Shown here: positions 1 through 19,614 of the stretch, in pieces
Position numbering within the stretch: the stretch's first letter is position 1
How the letters are laid out: each line of letters opens with the position of its first letter
NCBI RefSeq assembly: GCF_041468085.1
Contig: NZ_CP121017.1
Coordinates: 1,839,501 to 1,903,500 of the forward strand
DNA: 64,000 nt
Direction of reading: 5' to 3'
Source: Tistrella mobilis
GTDB lineage: Bacteria; Pseudomonadota; Alphaproteobacteria; Tistrellales; Tistrellaceae
Notes under the pieces: generated by a model
Database searches by the model: none
What the model was told of the DNA's origin: nothing
The model's input: the letters and a program-made list of their open reading frames with translations, nothing else
Program-made: the position numbers and the translations under genes

Positions 1-352
1 TGCCCGGCTGGCGGATGGTCCGGCCATCGCTGGTGGTCGTGGTGCGGCCGTTCTGGCTGCGGGGGTCGGGCAACGGTGCTTCCCCGGGGCGGCGGGGAAG
101 CTGGCCGGGCTGCTGATCGCCGGCGGCCGGGTTGCGGCCGCCGCTTGCATCGCTCTGCACGGCGCCATCCTGCCGGCCACCCGGCCGGCCCGCGACGCCT
201 GCCGTGTTGGCGGGCGGCTGGCCCTGATCCGCTGCACGCCGCTGGCCTGCGCCGTCTCGTCCTCCCGCGCCCTCTCGTCCGCCGGCCGGGCGGCCGTCGA
301 CGGAGGTGCGGATCAGGGCGGCAGGGATGGCAGGCGGGATGATCTCGACCAT
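1..352 (-). CDS. Partial Gly/Pro/Gln-rich protein next to flhG (C-terminus beyond window)
   Basis: An open frame starts at an ATG at 352 and runs off the left edge with no stop in 117 codons. It begins MVEIIPPAIPAALIRT and then becomes a disordered, Gly/Arg/Gln/Pro-rich stretch with no recognisable domain. It lies 98 bp after the flhG stop on the same strand. Two palindromes and a sigma-54-like element stand directly before its start, so it probably belongs to the flagellar regulon and may have its own promoter. Low-complexity Gln/Pro-rich regions are typical of the N-terminal part of hook-length-control (FliK-like) proteins, and a second FliK-like protein is one possibility. The diagnostic C-terminal domain is outside the window, so the function is not assigned. 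Confidence 0.5.
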   Translation of the reverse strand, partial: MVEIIPPAIPAALIRTSVDGRPAGGREGAGGRDGAGQRRAADQGQPPANTAGVAGRPGGRQDGAVQSDASGGRNPAAGDQQPGQLPRRPGEAPLPDPRSQNGRTTTTSDGRTIRQPG

Positions 353-377: not shown

Positions 378-418
378 ACCCGGCAGATTTTGCCGGGTCA
401 GGGCAGATCTTGCCGGGT
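378..418. promoter_or_regulatory. Paired palindromic sites, GGCA-N5-TGCC core
   Basis: ACCCGGCA (378-385) and TGCCGGGT (391-398) form a perfect 8-bp inverted repeat around GATTT. A second copy, GGCA-GATCT-TGCC, occupies 402-414, with its centre 20 bp (about two helical turns) away. The same core recurs upstream of fliF at 11499-11535. The arrangement resembles enhancer-type sites such as the ftr elements bound by FlbD in Caulobacter. That assignment is inference. Confidence 0.55.
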
Positions 419-423
419 GCCAC

Positions 424-438
424 GCAAGTTTCGTGCAG
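424..438 (-). promoter_or_regulatory. Sigma-54-like promoter element
   Basis: Read on the minus strand the sequence is CTGCACGAAACTTGC. It matches the TGGCACG-N4-TTGC consensus except for the first two positions, one of which is a normally invariant -24 G. Spacing is correct. It lies 72 bp before the start of the partial left-edge gene and 6 bp from the paired palindromes, which would then overlap the transcription start. Confidence 0.35.
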
Positions 439-450
439 GAAACGCCCCCG

Positions 451-1236
451 TCAGATGGCGAGATCGCCGGCGATCTTGTCGACGTCCATCGCCGCCGGGG
501 CGTTGGGGTGGCGGATGGTCAGCGGCGTCTGGCGGCGGATGGCCTCGCGCACCAGCTTGTCCCGCCGCACGATGCCGGCCAGTTTGGGCGCAACGCCCAG
601 GAAGTTCTGGGCGGCGTTGCGCAACGTCTCGTAGGTGCGGAAGCCGCCGGCCTGGCTGTCGGCCATGTTGACCACGATCCGCTGATCGGCTTCGGGATTG
701 TCGCGCAGCATCGCCTTCACGAAGGCATAGGCATCGGTGATCGAGGTCGGCTCGTCGGTGGTGACAACCAGCGCGGTGCCGGCGGTGGCGGCCAGCGCAC
801 GCACGGACTGGTCGAGCCCGGCGGCAAGATCGATCAGTACGGTATCATACTGGCGTGCGGCCTGCACGATGCCGAGGCGCAGCATGGCCACCCGTTCCGC
901 CGGCAGCCGGCCGAGAGAGCCGGAGCCGGATCGGCCGGGCAGGATGTCGAAGCCGCCGGCCTCGTAGCTGCTGATCGCCTCGGCGAAGCCGATCCGGCCG
1001 GTGACGACACCCGCCAGATCCGAGGGCGGCGTCAGCCCCAGCTGGACGTCGACATTGGCAAGGCCCAGATCGCCGTCGAACAGCAGCACCCGCCGCCCGC
1101 GGCGGGCAAGCGCGCCGGCGAGCGTGATCGAAAACCACGTCTTGCCGACGCCCCCCTTGCCGGAGGCGATGGCGACGACGTTGCGGGCGCGCAGCTTCGC
1201 GGCGGGATGTATGTGAACCGAACGGTCGACGTTCAT
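451..1236 (-). CDS. flhG: FlhG, MinD-like ATPase controlling flagellar number
   Basis: This 261-residue protein is a MinD/ParA-type ATPase with a deviant Walker A (SGKGGVGKT, residues 25-33), followed by the LFDGDLGLANVDVQLGL switch region. FlhG acts with FlhF to set the number and position of flagella. Its ATG overlaps the stop codon of flhF by four bases (ATGA), so the two are translationally coupled, which is the standard flhF-flhG order. It is the last gene of the flhA-flhF-flhG run. I call it FlhG rather than MinD because of the neighbours and because no MinC or MinE genes are present. Confidence 0.9.
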   Translation of the reverse strand: MNVDRSVHIHPAAKLRARNVVAIASGKGGVGKTWFSITLAGALARRGRRVLLFDGDLGLANVDVQLGLTPPSDLAGVVTGRIGFAEAISSYEAGGFDILPGRSGSGSLGRLPAERVAMLRLGIVQAARQYDTVLIDLAAGLDQSVRALAATAGTALVVTTDEPTSITDAYAFVKAMLRDNPEADQRIVVNMADSQAGGFRTYETLRNAAQNFLGVAPKLAGIVRRDKLVREAIRRQTPLTIRHPNAPAAMDVDKIAGDLAI

Positions 1237-4887: not shown

Positions 4888-6399
4888 TCAGCGATCATAG
4901 GCGCCGGAGCGTTCGAAGTCGCCGCCTGCCGGCGGCGGCACCGCCACGCCTTCCTCGGCATAGAGCTTCAGCTTGTTGCGCAGCGTACGGATCGAGATGC
5001 CGAGGATCGTGGCGGCATGGGTGCGGTTGCCCAGGCAGTGCTGGATGGTGTTGATGATCAGGTCGCGTTCCACCTCGGCCACGGTCCGGCCGACCAGGGC
5101 ACGGGTGGCGTCCTCGTCGTCGGCGGTGACCGGTGCGGCCGGGGCCGCCGGGGCGAAGCCCGCCGGCTGGCCATAGGCCACCGGCGGCACGCCATAGGGA
5201 TTGGCATAGGGGTTGTGCGAGGGCACGCTCGCCTGCGGCATGGCAGGGACGCGCTGGGGCTGGAATTCCTGACGACGGGCGGCTGCCGTCGCCAGGTTGG
5301 TGCCGTCGGCCAGCATGATCGCCTCGGCCCCGATCTCGGTGCCGCGCGCCAGCAGCACCGCCCGGTGCATGGTGTTTTCAAGCTCGCGGACATTGCCCGG
5401 CCAGTCATAGGTCAGCAGCAGGCTGCGCGCATCGGGCGACAGCGGCCGGTCGGGCAGGGCGTTGGCGGCCGCATAGCGCTGCACGAAATGATCGGCCAGC
5501 GCCGCCACATCCGAGGGCCGCTCGCGCAGTGACGGCAGGCGCAGATTGACCACGTTCAGGCGGAAATAGAGGTCTTCGCGGAAATTGCCGCGGCGGACCT
5601 CGTCTTCCAGATTGCGGTTGGAGGTGGCGATCAGGCGGATGTCGACCTTGACCGGCCGGGTGCCACCCACCCGGTCGACCTCGCGCTCCTGGATCACACG
5701 CAGCAGCTTGGCCTGCAGGCGCGGGTCCATCTCGCTGATCTCGTCCAGCAGCAGCGTGCCGCCATCGGCCTCTTCGAACTTGCCGACCCGGCGGGCCACG
5801 GCGCCGGTAAAGGCGCCCTTCTCGTGGCCGAACAGCTCGCTTTCCAGCAGGTTTTCGGGAATCGCGGCGCAGTTGACCGACACGAAGCGCTGATCGGCAC
5901 GGCGGCTCTTGCGGTGCAGGAAGCGGGCCATGACCTCCTTACCCGTGCCGCTTTCACCGGTGATCAGCACGGTTGCATCGGCGGGGGCGATCTGTTCGGC
6001 CAGCGACACCACCCGTTCCATGGCCGGGTCGCGGAAGATCAGCGCATGATCTTCGGATGCCACCGCCTCCAGCACCGCCGCGATCAGCTCCGGATCCGGC
6101 GGCAGCGGGATATATTCGCGGGCCCCCGCCTTGATGGCGCGCACTGCCGCCTGGGCATCCGCCCCCACCCCGCAGGCGACGACCGAGACATGAATGCGTT
6201 CCTGTTCAAGGCTGCGGACCAGGCGACCGATGTCGAGACCGACATCGACCATCACCAGCTCTGCCCCATGGCCGGCGCGCAGATGGTCCAATGCCGCTTC
6301 CACGTCGGGAACCTGCGACACCTTGGCGCCGCGCGACACGGCAATGCGCGTCGCCGCGCCGATCTGGCCGCCCAGGGAACCGATGATCAGAAGTCGCAT
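4888..6399 (-). CDS. flbD: FlbD-like sigma-54-dependent flagellar activator
   Basis: The order is a degenerate receiver domain (about residues 1-120), an AAA+ sigma-54 activation domain (Walker A GESGTGKE near 147, and GAFTGA near 207 for contact with sigma-54), a Pro/Ala-rich linker and a Fis-type helix-turn-helix (ATILGISIRTLRNKLK near the C-terminus). Its place between motA/fliN and flhA matches flbD of Caulobacter, which activates late flagellar genes and represses early ones through palindromic sites. The receiver keeps an Asp in MVDVGLD but looks atypical. It is the obvious candidate to bind the GGCA-N5-TGCC palindromes here and to fire the sigma-54 promoter before fliK. The start is supported by AGGAG ten bases upstream. 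Confidence 0.9.
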   Translation of the reverse strand: MRLLIIGSLGGQIGAATRIAVSRGAKVSQVPDVEAALDHLRAGHGAELVMVDVGLDIGRLVRSLEQERIHVSVVACGVGADAQAAVRAIKAGAREYIPLPPDPELIAAVLEAVASEDHALIFRDPAMERVVSLAEQIAPADATVLITGESGTGKEVMARFLHRKSRRADQRFVSVNCAAIPENLLESELFGHEKGAFTGAVARRVGKFEEADGGTLLLDEISEMDPRLQAKLLRVIQEREVDRVGGTRPVKVDIRLIATSNRNLEDEVRRGNFREDLYFRLNVVNLRLPSLRERPSDVAALADHFVQRYAAANALPDRPLSPDARSLLLTYDWPGNVRELENTMHRAVLLARGTEIGAEAIMLADGTNLATAAARRQEFQPQRVPAMPQASVPSHNPYANPYGVPPVAYGQPAGFAPAAPAAPVTADDEDATRALVGRTVAEVERDLIINTIQHCLGNRTHAATILGISIRTLRNKLKLYAEEGVAVPPPAGGDFERSGAYDR

Positions 6400-9590: not shown

Positions 9591-11297
9591 TCAATCCTCT
9601 TCCCGGATCCACGAGCGGATCACGGCCAGTGCTTCTTCGGGATGGCGGTCGACGATTTCGGCGATCTTGCGGATCGAGGACTGCCGCACCCGGCCCTCGA
9701 CCTGGCTGATGTCGATCATCGCCTCGCTGCTTTCGATCGCGGCGGCCAGCGCCCGTTCGGCGGTGGGGCCGGCCAGAGCCGGAACCGGGCTGCCGTCGGG
9801 GCCGGGCAGGGCGGCCATGGGCGTGCCGTCGGGGCCGGTGATCATGGTCACGCCGCCCACGCCCGCCATGCCGCCGGCACCGGCGCCCGCACCGGCGGGC
9901 TGCGGGCCCAGCCGGCCGACCAGCGGCCGCAGCACCAGCAGGATGACCAGCAGCGCCACGATCGCCAGCACCACCATTTCGGCGATGCGCATATAGTCGC
10001 TGGTCCCAAGGCCCAGCAGCCCCGTATCGGTCACGGCTTCCTGGCTGCGGGCAAAGGGCAGGTTCACCACCTCGATCCGGTCGCCGCGCTCGTCGTCGGC
10101 ACCGACGGCCGAGCGCACCAGCTGGGTCAGGCGTTCCATCTCGTCGGCGGCGCGGGGCTGATAGGTCTGGGTGCCGTCGTCGGCAGTCACATAGGTACCG
10201 TCCACCAGCACCGCGACCGACAGGCGCTTGATCGCCCCGCCCTCGCGGATCTCGTTGCGCACGGTGCGCGAGATCTCGTAATTGACCGTCTGGCCGTCGC
10301 GGTTGGACTGCGTGCGGTTGCCGCCGGCTCCCTGGCCCTGCTGGGCGTCGGGGATGTTGTTGGCGGCAGTGACCGCGTCGTCGCCGGCTTCGGTCGACAG
10401 TTCGTTTTCGCGATTCACCTGGCGCGAGCGGATGACCTGGCCGTCGGGGTCGAAGGTCTCCTGCGAGATGGTGACCCGGTTGTGGTCGATTTCGGCATGG
10501 ACTTCGACCTGCACCCGGCCGGGGCCGACCGATTCCTCGATCAGACGGGTGACCTGGGCACGCAGCTGGCTTTCGACGTTCTGGCGGGTCTCTTCGGCGG
10601 CGGTGAGGGCAGCGCCCGGCGCGCCTTCGGTGCCGCCGTCGCCGCGGGCGAGCAGGGTGCCGCGATCATCCGCGATCGCCACCCGTTCCGGCCGCAGCCC
10701 CGGCACCGCGGCCGCGACCAGCTGCTGGATGGCCCGCACCTGGCCCTGGGTCAGGCTGCGGCCACCCTTGGGGCTGACCACGATCGAGGCGGTGGGTTCG
10801 GCCTGATTGCGGGAGAACAGCTCCCGCCGCGGCAGCACGATGTGGACCCGTGCGGCCGACACCGCATCGATGGTCATGATCGTGCGCTGCAGTTCGCCTT
10901 CCAGCGCGCGGACCAGGTTGACGTTCTGGGCAAAATCGGTGGTGCCGAGGCCTTCGGAGCGGTCGAAGATTTCGTAGCCGATCGACCCGCCCTTGGGCAG
11001 GCCACCTTCGGCCAGGGTGAGGCGCAGACGGGGAATCTGGTCCTGCGGCACCATGATCCGGCGGCCGTCGGGGCTGAGCGTATAGGGCACGCCCGCCTGT
11101 TCCAGCTCGGCCACGACCGAGGCCGCATCTGCGGTGTCGAGGTCGCCATAGAGCAGGCCCATGGTCGGGCTGCCCAGCCGGGTGGCCAGGAAGACCGCGA
11201 AGATCAGCAGACCGCCCGCCACGGCACCCAGTGCCGCAAGCCGTGCCGGCCCCAATCCTTTCAGTGCCTGCATCCAGGCCTTCAGCGTATCCGCCAT
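9591..11297 (-). CDS. fliF: FliF, flagellar MS-ring protein
   Basis: FliF forms the membrane MS-ring that seeds flagellum assembly. With the ATG at 11297 the product is 568 residues, the family norm. An in-frame start further upstream at 11453 would add an unconserved Arg/Cys-rich leader. The N-terminal helix (LAALGAVAGGLLIFAVFLAT) is followed by the YscJ/FliF ring-building domains with GLLYGDLD and SAARVHIVLPRRELFSRNQ. A large periplasmic region and a second helix (EMVVLAIVALLVILLVL) precede the cytoplasmic tail that binds FliG. It is the first gene of its operon. Confidence 0.96.
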   Translation of the reverse strand: MADTLKAWMQALKGLGPARLAALGAVAGGLLIFAVFLATRLGSPTMGLLYGDLDTADAASVVAELEQAGVPYTLSPDGRRIMVPQDQIPRLRLTLAEGGLPKGGSIGYEIFDRSEGLGTTDFAQNVNLVRALEGELQRTIMTIDAVSAARVHIVLPRRELFSRNQAEPTASIVVSPKGGRSLTQGQVRAIQQLVAAAVPGLRPERVAIADDRGTLLARGDGGTEGAPGAALTAAEETRQNVESQLRAQVTRLIEESVGPGRVQVEVHAEIDHNRVTISQETFDPDGQVIRSRQVNRENELSTEAGDDAVTAANNIPDAQQGQGAGGNRTQSNRDGQTVNYEISRTVRNEIREGGAIKRLSVAVLVDGTYVTADDGTQTYQPRAADEMERLTQLVRSAVGADDERGDRIEVVNLPFARSQEAVTDTGLLGLGTSDYMRIAEMVVLAIVALLVILLVLRPLVGRLGPQPAGAGAGAGGMAGVGGVTMITGPDGTPMAALPGPDGSPVPALAGPTAERALAAAIESSEAMIDISQVEGRVRQSSIRKIAEIVDRHPEEALAVIRSWIREED

Positions 11298-11481
11298 GAG
11301 ACCCGTTCCACTCCGTCTCGCAATGCCCCGACCGGGGCGCCCGACGATTCTTCCGGCCCGACGATCCGTCTTCGCCCGACACCTCTCTTCGCACGACGCC
11401 CGATCCCCGTCCAGGGATCGGCACGCACGAAAAAGCCGGGCGATGCATGGCACCGCCCACCCCTGTTTACGCGATCTTTGG

Positions 11482-11497
11482 TGAACAGAAGGTTAAC
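11482..11497. promoter_or_regulatory. CtrA-like site upstream of fliF
   Basis: TGAA-CAGAAGG-TTAA-C differs from the CtrA consensus TTAA-N7-TTAA by one base and abuts the palindrome pair. CtrA control of early flagellar operons is established in Caulobacter; its use here is inferred. Confidence 0.4.
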
Positions 11498-11498
11498 G

Positions 11499-11535
11499 CC
11501 CGGCAGATTTTGCCGGGTGGGCGGCAAAAATTTCC
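11499..11535. promoter_or_regulatory. Paired palindromic sites upstream of fliF
   Basis: CCCGGCA (11499-11505) and TGCCGGG (11511-11517) form a perfect inverted repeat around GATTT. The same 5-bp centre and arms occur at 378-398. A weaker copy, GGCA-AAAAT-TTCC, occupies 11523-11535, centred 21 bp further on. This looks like a pair of dimer-binding sites for one regulator, with FlbD the best candidate. Confidence 0.55.
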
Positions 11536-11590
11536 GCCCGGATCATACTGTGGTTCAACGCATTGGCAATGTCTTGTTTTTGGAAAAAAT

Positions 11591-11605
11591 GCAAGGAATG
11601 CGCCG
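11591..11605 (-). promoter_or_regulatory. Possible sigma-54 promoter for the fliF operon
   Basis: On the minus strand the sequence has GG-N10-GC with a perfect TTGCA -12 element, but the -24 element (CGGCGCA) is imperfect. The leader to fliF would be about 280 bases, with the palindromes lying downstream of the start point. This is only a candidate. Confidence 0.25.
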
Positions 11606-11709
11606 ATAATCTGTACCGGAGCGGCGCTCTCTCCCGACGGTGTCGTGGGGCTCGCCGGGGATCAATATCTTAACGAAAGGTAAGCAGTCGCCGCGGCGGC
11701 CGGGGCGGA

Positions 11710-12039
11710 TCAACCCTTGCGTCCGCGACGGGAACGGCTGGCGATCAGCCGGCTGGCATCGGCACCATGGGCCTGGCGCCAGCTTTCGAACTCTTCGAGG
11801 CTGAGGGCATAGCGGCGGCAGACATCGTCGAGGGCCGCGGCACCGGCCATGACCGCCGCCACGACCTCGATCTTCCGTCGGGCGACCCACCGCACCCCGT
11901 TGCCGGGCGGCAGATCGAAGCGCAGCGCTGCCGATCGCTTCGGCCGGGTCGGCTTCTCCGGCAGGGCAACGACGTTACCGTCGGCGGTGTCGGGAATATC
12001 GGGCGCTGGCGATACCAGCTTCAGCCTGGGCGTGGTCAT
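11710..12039 (-). CDS. sciP: SciP-like CtrA inhibitor (DUF1153)
   Basis: The core LPPGNGVRWVARRKIEVVAA, with VCRRYALSLEEFESWRQA, is the DUF1153 helix-turn-helix signature of SciP. In Caulobacter SciP binds DNA and CtrA to block CtrA-activated genes, including flagellar ones. The start at 12039 (MTTPRLKLVSPAP, 109 residues) is preferred to an upstream start at 12162 because the extra residues are basic and look untranslated, though no clear Shine-Dalgarno sequence is seen. It has a longer N-terminal tail than typical 90-residue family members. It lies alone between the fliF and fliK-flgD-flgE units. Confidence 0.85.
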   Translation of the reverse strand: MTTPRLKLVSPAPDIPDTADGNVVALPEKPTRPKRSAALRFDLPPGNGVRWVARRKIEVVAAVMAGAAALDDVCRRYALSLEEFESWRQAHGADASRLIASRSRRGRKG

Positions 12040-14898: not shown

Positions 14899-17800
14899 TC
14901 AGATCCGCATGTCGACGCGGCGGCCGTCGATCATGGCCACCTGGTCCGCCGCCAGGCCGTTCAGACTTCCGATCCCGGCCAGCGGGTCGCGATCGGTATT
15001 CGTGTCGCGGTCGCGGCGCGGGGCCCCGTTGCCGCGGCGGTCGCCGTCACCGGCCATTCCACCGGACCCCTGGCCTGCAAAGCCCTGGCCGCCAAAGCCC
15101 TGGCCCTGCTGTCCCTGCTGCCCCGCCATCTGCTGCCCCCCCGCCTGGCCGGCCAGGGAACGATCGACGTCGTAGCGCAGCGAACCCGGCTCGATACGGA
15201 ACCCGGCCTGGGTAAGGCTGCGTTCCAGATCGCGTGCGTCGGCGGCGAGGGCATCGACGGCTTCCGGCTTTTCGGCCGAGAAACGGGCACTGATCCGGCC
15301 CTGGGCGTCGATCTTCATTTCGACCCGGACCCGGCCGAGATCGGCCGGCATCAGGGTCATCACGAAGTGGCTCTCACCACCTGTCAGAGGGGTGCCGCTC
15401 GTCAGAGCCGTATGCATGTGTTGTGCCACCTGCATCGCCGGCTTGCCCGGCAGGGCATCCTGCATCGGCAGTGACGGGGCCGATGCGGACGCAGCCGTCG
15501 CCTGGGGCGACCAGCCGCTACGGGTGGTGCCGGTTTCGGACAGCCCCATCACAGCGGCAGGGTCGCCGCCGGTCACTGCGGTCTGGCCGGCCTCGTCGAA
15601 CCAGGTCATCGCCGAAATGGCGGCGGCTCCGGCCGGAAGGGCCTGAATCTGCGCCTGCGCCCGGGACGTCGTGGCCTCGCGGGCAGGTTCTGCGGCGGCG
15701 GCGCGCGGTGCAGATGCCATGTCCGCCGCCGTCTGCCGGGCGCCGGCCTCGCCTGTCTGGCGGATGTTTGACGGCTGGACGGCGTCATCCGTCAGGGGCG
15801 CTGCATCGGGGGAACCGACTGCCGCCACCGCCGGCATGTCCGTGCGCGCGGCGGACAAATCCTGCCGGGGCGGAAGGTTCTGTCCCTCTGTGCGGGCATT
15901 TCCTGCCGGGGCGGCAGTTTCTGCCGCCGGGCCGGTTGCCGTGGCGGCAGCCATTGCCGTCTGCCGGACAGGAGCTGCCGGGGCATCGGTGCCGGACCGT
16001 CCTTCGGCCGCCTGTCCCGCCGTTCCGGCGGTGGGGGCAGCCTGAACGGTGTCGGCGCCCATGATCGCCCTTTCGGGCGCAGGGCCTGCAGGCGCGACCT
16101 GTCCGGCCGGGCCGGCTTCCGCCGCAGAAGCCGCCTGCGGGGCCGGGGCTGTCTGCGGTGCGGGGGTCGCTTCTGCTGCCGCTCCGGTGCGGCCGGCAGG
16201 GAAAACCTCGGTCGTGGCAGGTGTGGCGGCAGAAGGTCGGGCATCGCTCGTCTTCACCGTCTGCACGACCGCAGCCGGCTGAGCCGGCATGTCGACCTGA
16301 GGCCGTGCGCCCGGGCGTGCATCTGCAAGACCGCGCTGTTCAAAGGCCGCCCCGCCGCGGGGCGAAGCGCCGTCGGCCACCGGGGCGTCCTTTGTCGATG
16401 CAGCCGTCTTCGGCGCCCCCGTCATCGGGACATCGGCCGCGGGTGCATCGACCGTCGGCGCATCGACCATCGACCGACCGGTGGTCGGGCGGTCGACGGC
16501 CGGACGATCGGCCACCGGCGTCGCATCGGCACCAATCACGGGGGGGCTGGCGGTGGACGCCGTCGGCCGGAGGTTCCCGGTGTCGCGGGTTATCTCCACC
16601 TGGCGTGTGCCATCGGCTGCCGTGGTCGTCACCATAGCCGCTTCGGTCACCGCCGCCGTGGCCGGCCGGCGGGGGGCGCCGGTCTCTCCGGTATCAGCTG
16701 CTCGGGCGGGCGTGGCCGGCGCCGCTTCGATTGCGCCGTTGTGGCCTGCCGGCACTGCGGCCGTGTCGGTGTAGCCGGTGAAGGCTACGGTGCGGCCGGC
16801 AGGGCGCGCCAGCCCGACAGGCAGGTCCATCCGCCCCGTCGGGTCGCCGCCCGCAGTCTCCACCGCCCGGCCAGAGGTGGCGTGCTGCCGGGTGCGGGTG
16901 TTGGCCACGCCCTCACGGCCGGCCGGCATGGTGACCGCCAGAACGGTGTCGTCGCCCACAGGGGGATTGTCGAGTGCGGCCGAAACCGCCTCTTCGAAAC
17001 TGATCGCTCCCGGCACCGTGACGGTGACGGTCTGGTCCGCCCCCGGAATGTCGGGCATCGCAGGCGCCGCCGTGGAGGGCTGTGCCACACCTGCAACCAC
17101 GACCTCATCGGGTGTCAGCGTCATGGGGGCGGCTGCCGTGGCTGGCGCCGTCACCGGGCCGGAGGGAGGGGTAAACGCACCCGCCAGGGTGGTGGTCGGC
17201 TGAGAGCCGGCAAAGAGGGCTGCCGTCGTCGCCTCGGCATCGCCATCGGTCGCCGTGTCGCGCGGCGCCGGCGCGGTATCCACCCGTGCCGACCCGCCGG
17301 CTGCGTGAGGCACCGCCGGCGCGCTGTCCATACGAATGCGGGCGGTATCGATCACCGCTGCGGCCGCGGTGACGGCGCGGGCGGCAAGATCCCGGCCAAG
17401 GATCGGGGGCGCCGCCTCGGGGGCGGTATCGGCCGTTATACCCGTCGCCGTCTCTCCGCCGGCCTCCGTCTCTTCAGCCGTTTCGGCATTTACGGCCGTG
17501 CCCGTGTCCGTCACGGCGTCGGTCTCGGCAACGGCCCTCGTCTTCGCAGTCGTTTCCGTTTCAGCAGCCGTCTCTGTCCAGGCGCCGGCACCGATTGCCG
17601 ACAGCTTCCCTGCCACGGCAGCAATTGCCGGCATCGGCAAATCCTGCCGGGGGGAAACTGCCGGATTGGTGCTGTGACGCGGGGGCTCTGTCGTGGTCCC
17701 GGCACTCTCGGGCGCCTGCGGCGCGGTGCGGGTCCGCTCGGCTGCCGTGTCCTGCGCGAGCGGTGCCTGGCTTGCGGCCGGCTGACGGCTGGCGACGGTT

Positions 17801-18267: not shown

Positions 18268-18283
18268 AGCAAGTACCGTGCCA
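18268..18283 (-). promoter_or_regulatory. Consensus sigma-54 promoter of fliK-flgD-flgE
   Basis: On the minus strand the sequence is TGGCACGGTACTTGCT, a complete match to TGGCACG-N4-TTGCW with correct GG-N10-GC spacing. The predicted start point is about 45 bp before the fliK ATG. Two 16-bp direct repeats lie immediately upstream. Confidence 0.85.
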
Positions 18284-18336: not shown

Positions 18337-19614
18337 TCAGTCCGCCCGTCGGGCGTCGGGTGTGGCCAGCGGCAGGTCGAAGCACGAGGTGGTGCCCCGG
18401 CCCTCGGTGCTTTCAAGCGTCAGCGTGCCGCCCTGCAGTTCCACCAGCATGCGGCTGATCGTCAGGCCGAGCCCGGTGCCCTTGACCTGGGTTTCGGCGC
18501 CGCCATTGCGGGCCTGTTCATAGGGACGCATCAGCCGGGCCAGATCATCCGGGGCGATGCCGGGGCCTTCATCGGCGACGGCGACGATGAACCGGCCATT
18601 TTCCGTCCGGTTGTGGACCGTAATCGCGCCGCCGGGTGGGCTGTATTTGATGGCGTTGGACAACAGGTTGAGCATCACCTGCTTCAGCGCCCGATCATCG
18701 GCGACGATCTCCGGCGAAGGGCGCAGCGGTATCCAGATGATCCGCACCCGCTTTTCGATCGCAAGCCCGCCGACCACGCGGATGGTCTGCGACAGCACCG
18801 GATTGGCGGCCATGGCGGTGGGCGTGACGTCGTATTTGCCGGCCTCGATCTTGGCCATGTCGAGCAGATCGTTGATGATCGACAGCAGATGCCGGCCGCT
18901 GCCGTGGATCGAGTTCAGATAGCCCAGATAGGTCTCGTTGCCCACCGGCCCCAGAACCTGCTGTTCCATCAGCTCGGCAAAGCCGATGATCGCGGTCAAC
19001 GGCGTGCGCAGCTCGTGGGTGAGCGTGGCCAGAAACAACGATTTCTGCTGGAAGGCGCCTTCGGCCGAGAGCCGCTGGGCGTAGTTTTCCTCGGCCAGCC
19101 GGACCAGCTCTTCCGCCTGCTGCTCCAGAAGGCTGCTCTGATGGGTCAGTTCGGCCTCGTGTGCGGCCAGACGGTCGGCCTGATCGAGGGCGGTCGCCAC
19201 GGTCACGCCCAGATCCATCACCGCGCGCAAGGCTTCGGTCTGCCGTTGCAGGATGGTGGTCGCCCGGGCATCCAGCGGCGGGCAGCCCTCCAGCGCCAGA
19301 ACGGCAATCGGGGTGCCATCCGTGGCCCGGACCTCCGCCAGATGCAGATCCGTATCGCCGTCGCTGCTCAGGTGCCGCCTGACCCGCTCGAAGAGATCTT
19401 GAGAGCCGGGGATGCTGCGCCCGTCGGCCAGAGTGCCCGCCAGGACACGGAAGCCGCGGTCGTCCAGGCCCACCAACATGCCGGCGGTCGCATCCAGTGC
19501 CGAGACCGTCGCTGTCACGAGCTGGCCCAGCGCCGGTGCAGACTCCGATCCGAGAACCCGATAGCGGCGCTGCGTCTCGATTTTCCGCCGGTCGGTGGTC
19601 AGGTCGAGCGTCAT
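18337..19614 (-). CDS. GAF-domain sensor histidine kinase
   Basis: This is a soluble 425-residue histidine kinase. A GAF-like sensor region (residues about 15-140, with RRYRVLGSESAPALGQLV) leads into a coiled coil (LLEQQAEELVRLAEE). The phosphoacceptor box THELRTPLTAIIGFAELM and a HATPase domain with NLLSNAIKYSPPGG, DEGPGIAP and GTGLGLTISRML follow. The ATG at 19614 is chosen over 19752 because GGAG stands just before it and the extra N-terminus is His/Arg-rich and non-domain. No response regulator is adjacent. It precedes the fliK unit on the same strand, so a flagellar link is possible but unproven. Confidence 0.88.
   Translation of the reverse strand: MTLDLTTDRRKIETQRRYRVLGSESAPALGQLVTATVSALDATAGMLVGLDDRGFRVLAGTLADGRSIPGSQDLFERVRRHLSSDGDTDLHLAEVRATDGTPIAVLALEGCPPLDARATTILQRQTEALRAVMDLGVTVATALDQADRLAAHEAELTHQSSLLEQQAEELVRLAEENYAQRLSAEGAFQQKSLFLATLTHELRTPLTAIIGFAELMEQQVLGPVGNETYLGYLNSIHGSGRHLLSIINDLLDMAKIEAGKYDVTPTAMAANPVLSQTIRVVGGLAIEKRVRIIWIPLRPSPEIVADDRALKQVMLNLLSNAIKYSPPGGAITVHNRTENGRFIVAVADEGPGIAPDDLARLMRPYEQARNGGAETQVKGTGLGLTISRMLVELQGGTLTLESTEGRGTTSCFDLPLATPDARRAD

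Follow-up and report, generated by a model that had tools for sequence, protein, structure and literature searches.

The closest described systems are the FlbD-dependent flagellar promoters of Caulobacter crescentus, the tandem enhancers of the NtrC type, and the class II flagellar promoters activated by CtrA. FlbD is an activator of sigma54 promoters, while CtrA promoters are of the sigma70 type, and NtrC recognizes a palindrome of the form GCAC-N5-GTGC. In Caulobacter, as described in the review literature (PMC3930126, PMC3096577), FlbD binds the ftr sites, represses fliF via ftr4 and activates later genes, and FliX controls FlbD. The window discussed below, i.e., the whole 64-kb stretch of Tistrella mobilis DNA that was analyzed, contains paired palindromes that, judged by sequence comparison, are probably FlbD operators of this ftr type, acting as enhancers at sigma54 promoters and in a CtrA-linked feedback at fliF.

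The two pairs are built around a 19-mer (CCCGGCAGATTTTGCCGGG) that is present in identical copies at 379-397 and 11499-11517, confirming the duplication on which the sequence-only reading of this DNA had been built. With up to three mismatches, the 19-mer has five matches in the window (both strands counted; places 379, 399 and 11499), against 0.05 expected in shuffles. Each copy has a partner at 20 or 21 bp, as had been claimed, but the description of these partners as weaker does not hold for the left one, whose core (GGCAGATCTTGCC) is an exact GGCA-N5-TGCC; the core of the distal palindrome at fliF is GGCAAAAATTTCC. Both pairs are intergenic and precede genes of the flagellar region: the left pair lies between the flhG stop and the ATG (position 352) of a minus-strand ORF for a protein of 1332 aa, the left-edge gene, and the right pair between a sciP-like gene and fliF. 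The FlbD-like activator that had been noticed between the two pairs is indeed encoded there (Table 1). The bare four-base half-site is not specific, because GGCA-N5-TGCC has 14 matches in the window, against 3.2 expected, with coding DNA among the places where it turns up; the A/T-rich center and the G/C flanks of the palindrome matter for specificity.

Table 1. Operators, promoter elements and genes discussed in the text. Coordinates are those of the window unless a contig (C4) is named; negative positions are counted from the start codon.
Feature	Position	Strand	Sequence	Remarks
Left-edge gene, 5' end	1..352	-		1332-aa Pro/Ala-rich protein; whole gene C4:1835854-1839852
Left operator, palindrome 1	379..397	.	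CCCGGCAGATTTTGCCGGG	Center 388; kept in 3/3 Tistrella genomes
Left operator, palindrome 2	399..417	.	CAGGGCAGATCTTGCCGGG	Center 408, 20 bp from palindrome 1
Weak sigma54-like element	423..438	-	CTGCACGAAACTTGCG	T in place of the first G in the -24 GG; score 11.3 of 14.9
flhG (MinD/ParA-like)	451..1236	-		Named by similarity and synteny; no equivalog cut-off passed
flbD	4888..6399	-		NF050807.1 equivalog, 779.9 bits (cut-off 750)
fliF (MS ring)	9591..11297	-		TIGR00206, 296.3 bits (cut-off 129.75)
CtrA-type box	11482..11496	-	TTAACCTTCTGTTCA	TTAA-N7-TTAA with one mismatch; center 19 bp downstream of proximal palindrome
fliF palindrome, proximal	11499..11517	.		Center 11508; identical to 379-397
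fliF palindrome, distal	11520..11538	.	GGCGGCAAAAATTTCCGCC	Center 11529, 21 bp from proximal
sciP-like gene (DUF1153)	11710..12039	-		Upstream of the fliF promoter; PF06627, 65.3 bits (cut-off 23.5)
FlbD-like palindrome pair	17614..17651	.		Within the fliK ORF; center spacing 19 bp
Sigma54 element, near-consensus	18268..18283	-	TGGCACGGTACTTGCT	Before the fliK-flgD-flgE run
19-mer places outside the window	C4:1666101, C4:1666134			33 bp apart, before a flagellin gene
19-mer place outside the window	C4:1685049			flgI/fliX intergenic region
flagellin1 promoter	Sigma54 -123; palindromes -185, -218		TGGCACCGCCATTGCA
flagellin2 promoter	Sigma54 -132; palindromes -217, -239		TGGCACACCCCGTGCA	Palindrome -217 with one mismatch
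flgI promoter	Sigma54 -62; palindromes -122, -167		TGGCACGGTTCTCGCA	Palindrome -122 with one mismatch
flgF promoter	Sigma54 -39; palindromes -122, -155		TGGCATGGTGTCTGCA	Palindromes with one mismatch each

Throughout the 6.30-Mb genome, which has four contigs and contains the window at C4:1839501-1903500, the 19-mer with up to two mismatches occurs in five places, each of them intergenic and flagellar. A degenerate core drawn up from these places (GGCARWNWYTGCC) has 16 genome matches against 6 for the reversed control. Eight of the 16 lie in flagellar clusters, one inside fliK, one inside an ORF taken for flgA from its position beside flgG and flgH, and six between genes; the last are all flagellar promoters, namely, the five places of the 19-mer plus one that precedes a second flagellin gene. 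The eight matches outside the clusters are all within ORFs. When the five sites that define the pattern are left out, 3 of 11 matches remain within flagellar clusters (binomial p 6e-4, with the clusters taken as about 100 kb, an estimated extent). The flagellar sites were found again in all three Tistrella genomes. Thus, the genome scan that the sequence-only reading had proposed does find the motif at flagellar operons, with six of six intergenic matches at flagellar promoters, and the full motif is not scattered at random through coding DNA, an outcome that the same reading had considered; the loose GGCA-N5-TGCC does occur there. Broader patterns were tried as well: the loose CGGCARNNNYTGCCG with one mismatch was useless as a genome scan (646 places vs 590 for the control), a further pattern gave 356 vs 133, and a repeat with exact patterns gave 21 vs 6.

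At four promoters of late genes (flagellin1, flagellin2, flgI and flgF), palindromes lie 60-116 bp upstream of a sigma54 element, the layout expected of an NtrC-type enhancer. The fliK-flgD-flgE run, which has its own near-consensus element, has palindromes only inside fliK, where the pair at 17614-17651 is a possible downstream enhancer, its coding location making it weaker evidence. FlbD-like palindromes form clusters in the fliK ORF at 15851-15982 and 17614-17665 of the window, downstream of the strong sigma54 element at 18268, and in this they recall the 3' enhancers that have reportedly been found in Caulobacter. The promoter of this hook operon is adjoined by a histidine kinase gene (18337-19614, minus strand), whose best NCBIfam match is DivJ with 202.6 bits, far under the cut-off of 1000. 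Elsewhere in the genome (L058:1306-1368, that is, C4:1661305-1661367), a fliS-like gene is followed by four imperfect palindromes, overlapping at intervals of 13-17 bp, which precede a gene without an evident flagellar role.

The fliF promoter is organized differently from this layout. A sigma54 promoter was sought and rejected, the best element (CGGCGCATTCCTTGCA) being at -308, upstream of the palindromes, with nothing convincing between the palindromes and the ATG. The palindromes stand next to a CtrA-type box instead, and the geometry recurs in relatives; in most of them, the box is also one mismatch off TTAA-N7-TTAA, its right half usually being TTCA or TTTA. A separate feature of the region is a 10-bp hairpin followed by GCTTTTT (11437-11459, minus strand), at and just past the fliF start predicted near 11458, of a kind found once where shuffles give 0.8; it is perhaps the end of the sciP transcript, a leader attenuator before fliF, or chance.

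The same arrangement was sought across Alphaproteobacteria. A search with FlbD gave 80 named loci, 59 of which include the start of fliF with 150 bp or more ahead of it. In 49 of these 59, an exact GGCA-N5-TGCC with an A/T-rich center is found at most 450 bp upstream of fliF; none of eight control palindromes, the reversed and NtrC-like forms among them, is found in any of the 59. With a scoring matrix trained on sites of this Tistrella genome, the fliF site included, the top score in the fliF upstream region stands out from the remainder of the same locus (p <= 0.05) in 44 of the 59. Paired palindromes are 21 bp apart in 17 of 24 pairs, and the distance from palindrome to CtrA box peaks at 19-20 bp (31 cases), 40-41 bp (8 cases, fitting the distal palindromes) and -23/-24 bp (6 cases). 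With at most one mismatch, the box lies 17-22 bp downstream of the palindrome in 41 loci (the "up" order, as in Tistrella) and 22-26 bp upstream of it in 7 (the "down" order); eight of the remaining loci have neither order and three have no core.

A second sample comprised 241 genomes of the class, of which 148 have a FliF match and 128 of these were tested; the other 20 are the Tistrella genome itself and weak, partial, contig-end or otherwise unfetched matches. FlbD was called with a model covering the first 140 residues of the protein, which places 118 genomes at 134 bits or more, followed by a gap down to 79. An exact palindrome precedes fliF in 59 of 107 FlbD-positive genomes, in 0 of 17 FlbD-negative ones and in 1 of 4 with a doubtful FlbD (Fisher p 6e-6 for positive vs negative, relatedness ignored), while dinucleotide shuffles of the FlbD-positive set give a mean of 1.1 and at most 4. 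The strict geometry with a CtrA box, at most one mismatch allowed, is present in 60 of the 107 (42 up, 18 down), in 0 of 17 and in 0 of 4, respectively, and never in ten base-shuffled copies of the FlbD-positive set. Over both samples, the box stands 18-21 bp downstream of the palindrome or, in Hyphomicrobiales and Caulobacterales-like genomes, 23-25 bp upstream of it. Counts of loci and genomes are not independent in either sample, because the genomes compared are related. No exact palindrome precedes fliF in 48 of the 107 FlbD-positive genomes, and among those with a G+C content below 0.45 the exact site is missing in 20 of 24, which may mean that the motif has changed, that the regulation was lost or that sensitivity was poor.

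The presumed ligand of the palindromes is FlbD, a sigma54 activator that combines a sigma54-interaction domain with a Fis-type HTH (HTH_8, residues 440-479). Its helix region, GNRTHAA.ILGISIRTLRNK, is invariant in all 79 relatives (of 80) that align without gaps. The genome also encodes a CtrA-like regulator and FliX (PF10768, 142.7 bits, cut-off 25, although no NCBIfam model for FliX is passed at its cut-off), and fliX adjoins one of the palindrome sites, that of the flgI/fliX intergenic region. The equivalog match of FlbD, the exclusively flagellar intergenic matches, the pairing with sigma54 elements, the contrast between FlbD-positive and FlbD-negative genomes at fliF and the invariant helix together support the earlier proposal of an operator for two FlbD dimers.

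From the computed sites, their positions, specificity, co-occurrence with FlbD and geometry, we infer binding, dimers, start sites and the direction of the effect as follows. One FlbD dimer would bind each GGCA-N5-TGCC palindrome through its Fis-type HTH, and two neighboring dimers would be separated by about two helical turns (20-21 bp). At the late genes (flagellins, flgI, flgF), the pair would serve as an enhancer 60-116 bp upstream of the sigma54 promoter, while at fliF the presumed -35 region would hold the CtrA box, with the pair some two turns upstream of it. The location of the pair upstream of this box suggests that FlbD acts on a CtrA-driven promoter, and since fliF and, after it, flbD belong to one gene run, flbD is presumably autoregulated and a feedback loop between fliF and FlbD would result. 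The feedback would most likely be repression, with the early genes turned off when the MS ring and the export gate have been completed, as has been reported for Caulobacter.

The direction of the effect at fliF is where the most serious alternative arises. In the down order, repression has a simple explanation. In R. sphaeroides, according to one report, transcription starts 23-24 nt past the end of the CtrA box (PMC6180460); with this spacing, the palindromes would fall at about -50 and -71 in the up order, as in Tistrella, and at about -6 in the down order, which is a plain repressor position. The same operator might then have FlbD help CtrA from about -50 and -71, repression being confined to the down order, over the -10 region. 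This co-activation is the less likely of the two, but it is a serious possibility: besides the predicted positions, the exact spacing is what would be seen with touching proteins. On the other hand, the effect on fliF in Caulobacter is reported as repression, FlbD activates sigma54 promoters rather than the sigma70-type promoters of CtrA, and an edge-to-edge gap of 2-3 bp equally suits steric blocking of CtrA. The up order is therefore compatible with both blocking of CtrA and contact and help.

Repression at fliF was given better odds because of the analogy with Caulobacter, and this analogy is unsafe because the up position differs from that of Caulobacterales-like genomes. Six of these were picked, indirectly, by best similarity to the Caulobacter DivJ model, none above its cut-off, and all four with a tested fliF region (G003, G052, G120 and G232) have the down order, with the palindrome 24 bp downstream of the CtrA box, whereas in Tistrella it is upstream. 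Among the named loci, the down order belongs to Roseibium (two), Methylorubrum (three), one Hyphomicrobiales MAG and one Rhodospirillaceae MAG (L079). When the 59 loci are placed on a tree of FlbD, a single clade (100/98) contains all six Hyphomicrobiales rows, and the order label needs two changes, fewer than in any of 500 shuffles, although the tree is not firmly rooted at depth and L079 has a long branch. A bolder and tentative proposal, which we would not favor on present grounds, is that an ancient, rigidly phased FlbD-FlbD-CtrA operator (centers about 21 and about 20 bp apart) starts flagellum building in Alphaproteobacteria, and that its order was switched in the Hyphomicrobiales/Caulobacterales line, FlbD changing from an upstream partner of CtrA to a blocker of the -10 region. 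If true, the Caulobacter-type feedback would be a derived form and not the general one.

Whether FlbD is the protein that binds could also be questioned, as the palindrome might be the site of a different regulator co-occurring with the FlbD/CtrA flagellar system, such as SciP, FliX or an unrecognized protein. SciP-like genes often lie directly before fliF (the Tistrella product scores 68.3 bits against the SciP model NF051866, under its cut-off of 100), linked genes are inseparable by co-occurrence, and an exact palindrome precedes fliF in one of the four genomes with only a doubtful FlbD. This is improbable nonetheless: an activator of the NtrC type requires just such a two-site spacing and sigma54 elements as partners, the palindrome loci L070, L076, L080 and L110 show no SciP match, and the FlbD helix is invariant. 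Furthermore, the motif given for SciP of Caulobacter in a further paper is GCGNC (PMC4287350).

An RNA hairpin or intrinsic terminator between genes, to which the GC-rich 7-bp arms and the 5-nt loop of the palindromes would be suited, is very improbable, as the GC stem with a T run that defines a terminator is found at neither palindrome. No terminator-like site is present at 300-520, the sole one in 11290-11720 is the hairpin at 11437-11459, and the palindromes keep a constant distance from the CtrA box downstream of them and are found in a divergent intergenic region as well. Chance repeats in a GC-rich genome, for which only the abundance of bare GGCA-N5-TGCC in coding DNA speaks, can hardly be credited and are refuted for the full motif by the shuffle expectation, the exclusively flagellar intergenic matches and the class-wide conservation.

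If the palindromes are FlbD operators, the left pair would bring a poorly described gene under FlbD control. In 46 of 58 loci, a relative of the left-edge gene follows flhG, often with a four-base overlap of flhG, and the C-terminal region of the protein is conserved (alignment A2, 15 rows). The full protein matches no Pfam or NCBIfam family, none of the 15 aligned members matches PF02120 (Flg_hook), which the other FliK of the window does (47.5 bits), a PDB sequence search with the protein returned nothing, and a profile comparison of it with this FliK was not significant (probability 0.3). In fold comparisons of its AlphaFold2 model, of modest confidence (pLDDT 63.9), the top row is in both cases the substrate-switch domain of PscP (5cuk; Foldseek E 0.063; VIA Z 5.8, rmsd 3.8, 82 residues aligned), and the C-terminal domain of FliK (2rrl) is in a lower row (Z 4.4, rmsd 3.4, 67 aligned); a Z below 8 counts as weak by the tool's own note. 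The model thus possibly depicts a second FliK/YscP-like ruler beside the FliK of the window.

The gene is flagellar by synteny in any case, but the operator before it was seen in Tistrella alone. The left pair is present in all three Tistrella genomes, the center of palindrome 2 differing in the two others with the GGCA/TGCC arms kept; searched for after flhG in 58 loci, it was found only in Tistrella mobilis (L063), and any exact core within 900 bp after flhG was found in 3 of 58. With this distribution, the left operator would mark a lineage-specific addition to the regulon, Tistrella having presumably gained this further pair between flhG and the FliK-like gene. The weak element CTGCACGAAACTTGCG, oddly placed just upstream of the pair, is identical in the three Tistrella genomes, and its score level is often reached by chance. 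A start from it would fall near 412 and place the palindromes at about +4 and +24; if the element is used, the pair would thus cover the start, which would suggest repression rather than enhancement. In the record of Tistrella mobilis KA081020-065 (L063:15929-19900), the frame with the FliK-like C-terminus opens only 2262 nt past the flhG stop; the N-terminal start is kept shortly after the palindromes. This is a frameshift, either real or in the record.

From the comparison come a sharp FlbD operator pattern and, with CtrA, a composite signature by which any genome of the Alphaproteobacteria can be scored by computation alone; the likely FlbD targets of Tistrella are named, and a poorly described FliK-like gene would join the regulon of this one genus. 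Entry into the flagellar program is through the fliF promoter, which exists in two alternative FlbD-CtrA orders, and this allows a direct test of whether FlbD acts alike at fliF in each. A literature search, with older papers thinly covered, found no paper on the FlbD operator sequence or on its spacing to CtrA.

Compared with Caulobacter crescentus, Tistrella shares the FlbD equivalog, FliX, a CtrA-like regulator and the split into early and late genes, and, likened by description and not by the letters of ftr, the sites at fliF, flagellin and ring promoters and their sigma54 partners; unlike Caulobacter, it has an extra operator at the FliK-like gene after flhG. Like an NtrC-type tandem enhancer, the operators consist of two palindromes, some of them 60-116 bp upstream of a -24/-12 promoter, but the half-site is GGCA/TGCC, and an NtrC operator was rejected, as the GCAC-N5-GTGC form is absent from the upstream regions of fliF in all 59 named loci. 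Like a class II flagellar promoter activated by CtrA, fliF has a box of the TTAA-N7-TTAA type upstream; unlike a plain promoter of this class, the box is coupled to FlbD palindromes at a fixed spacing. FlbD operators were already known from Caulobacter, and the phased FlbD-CtrA array and the switch in its order look new.
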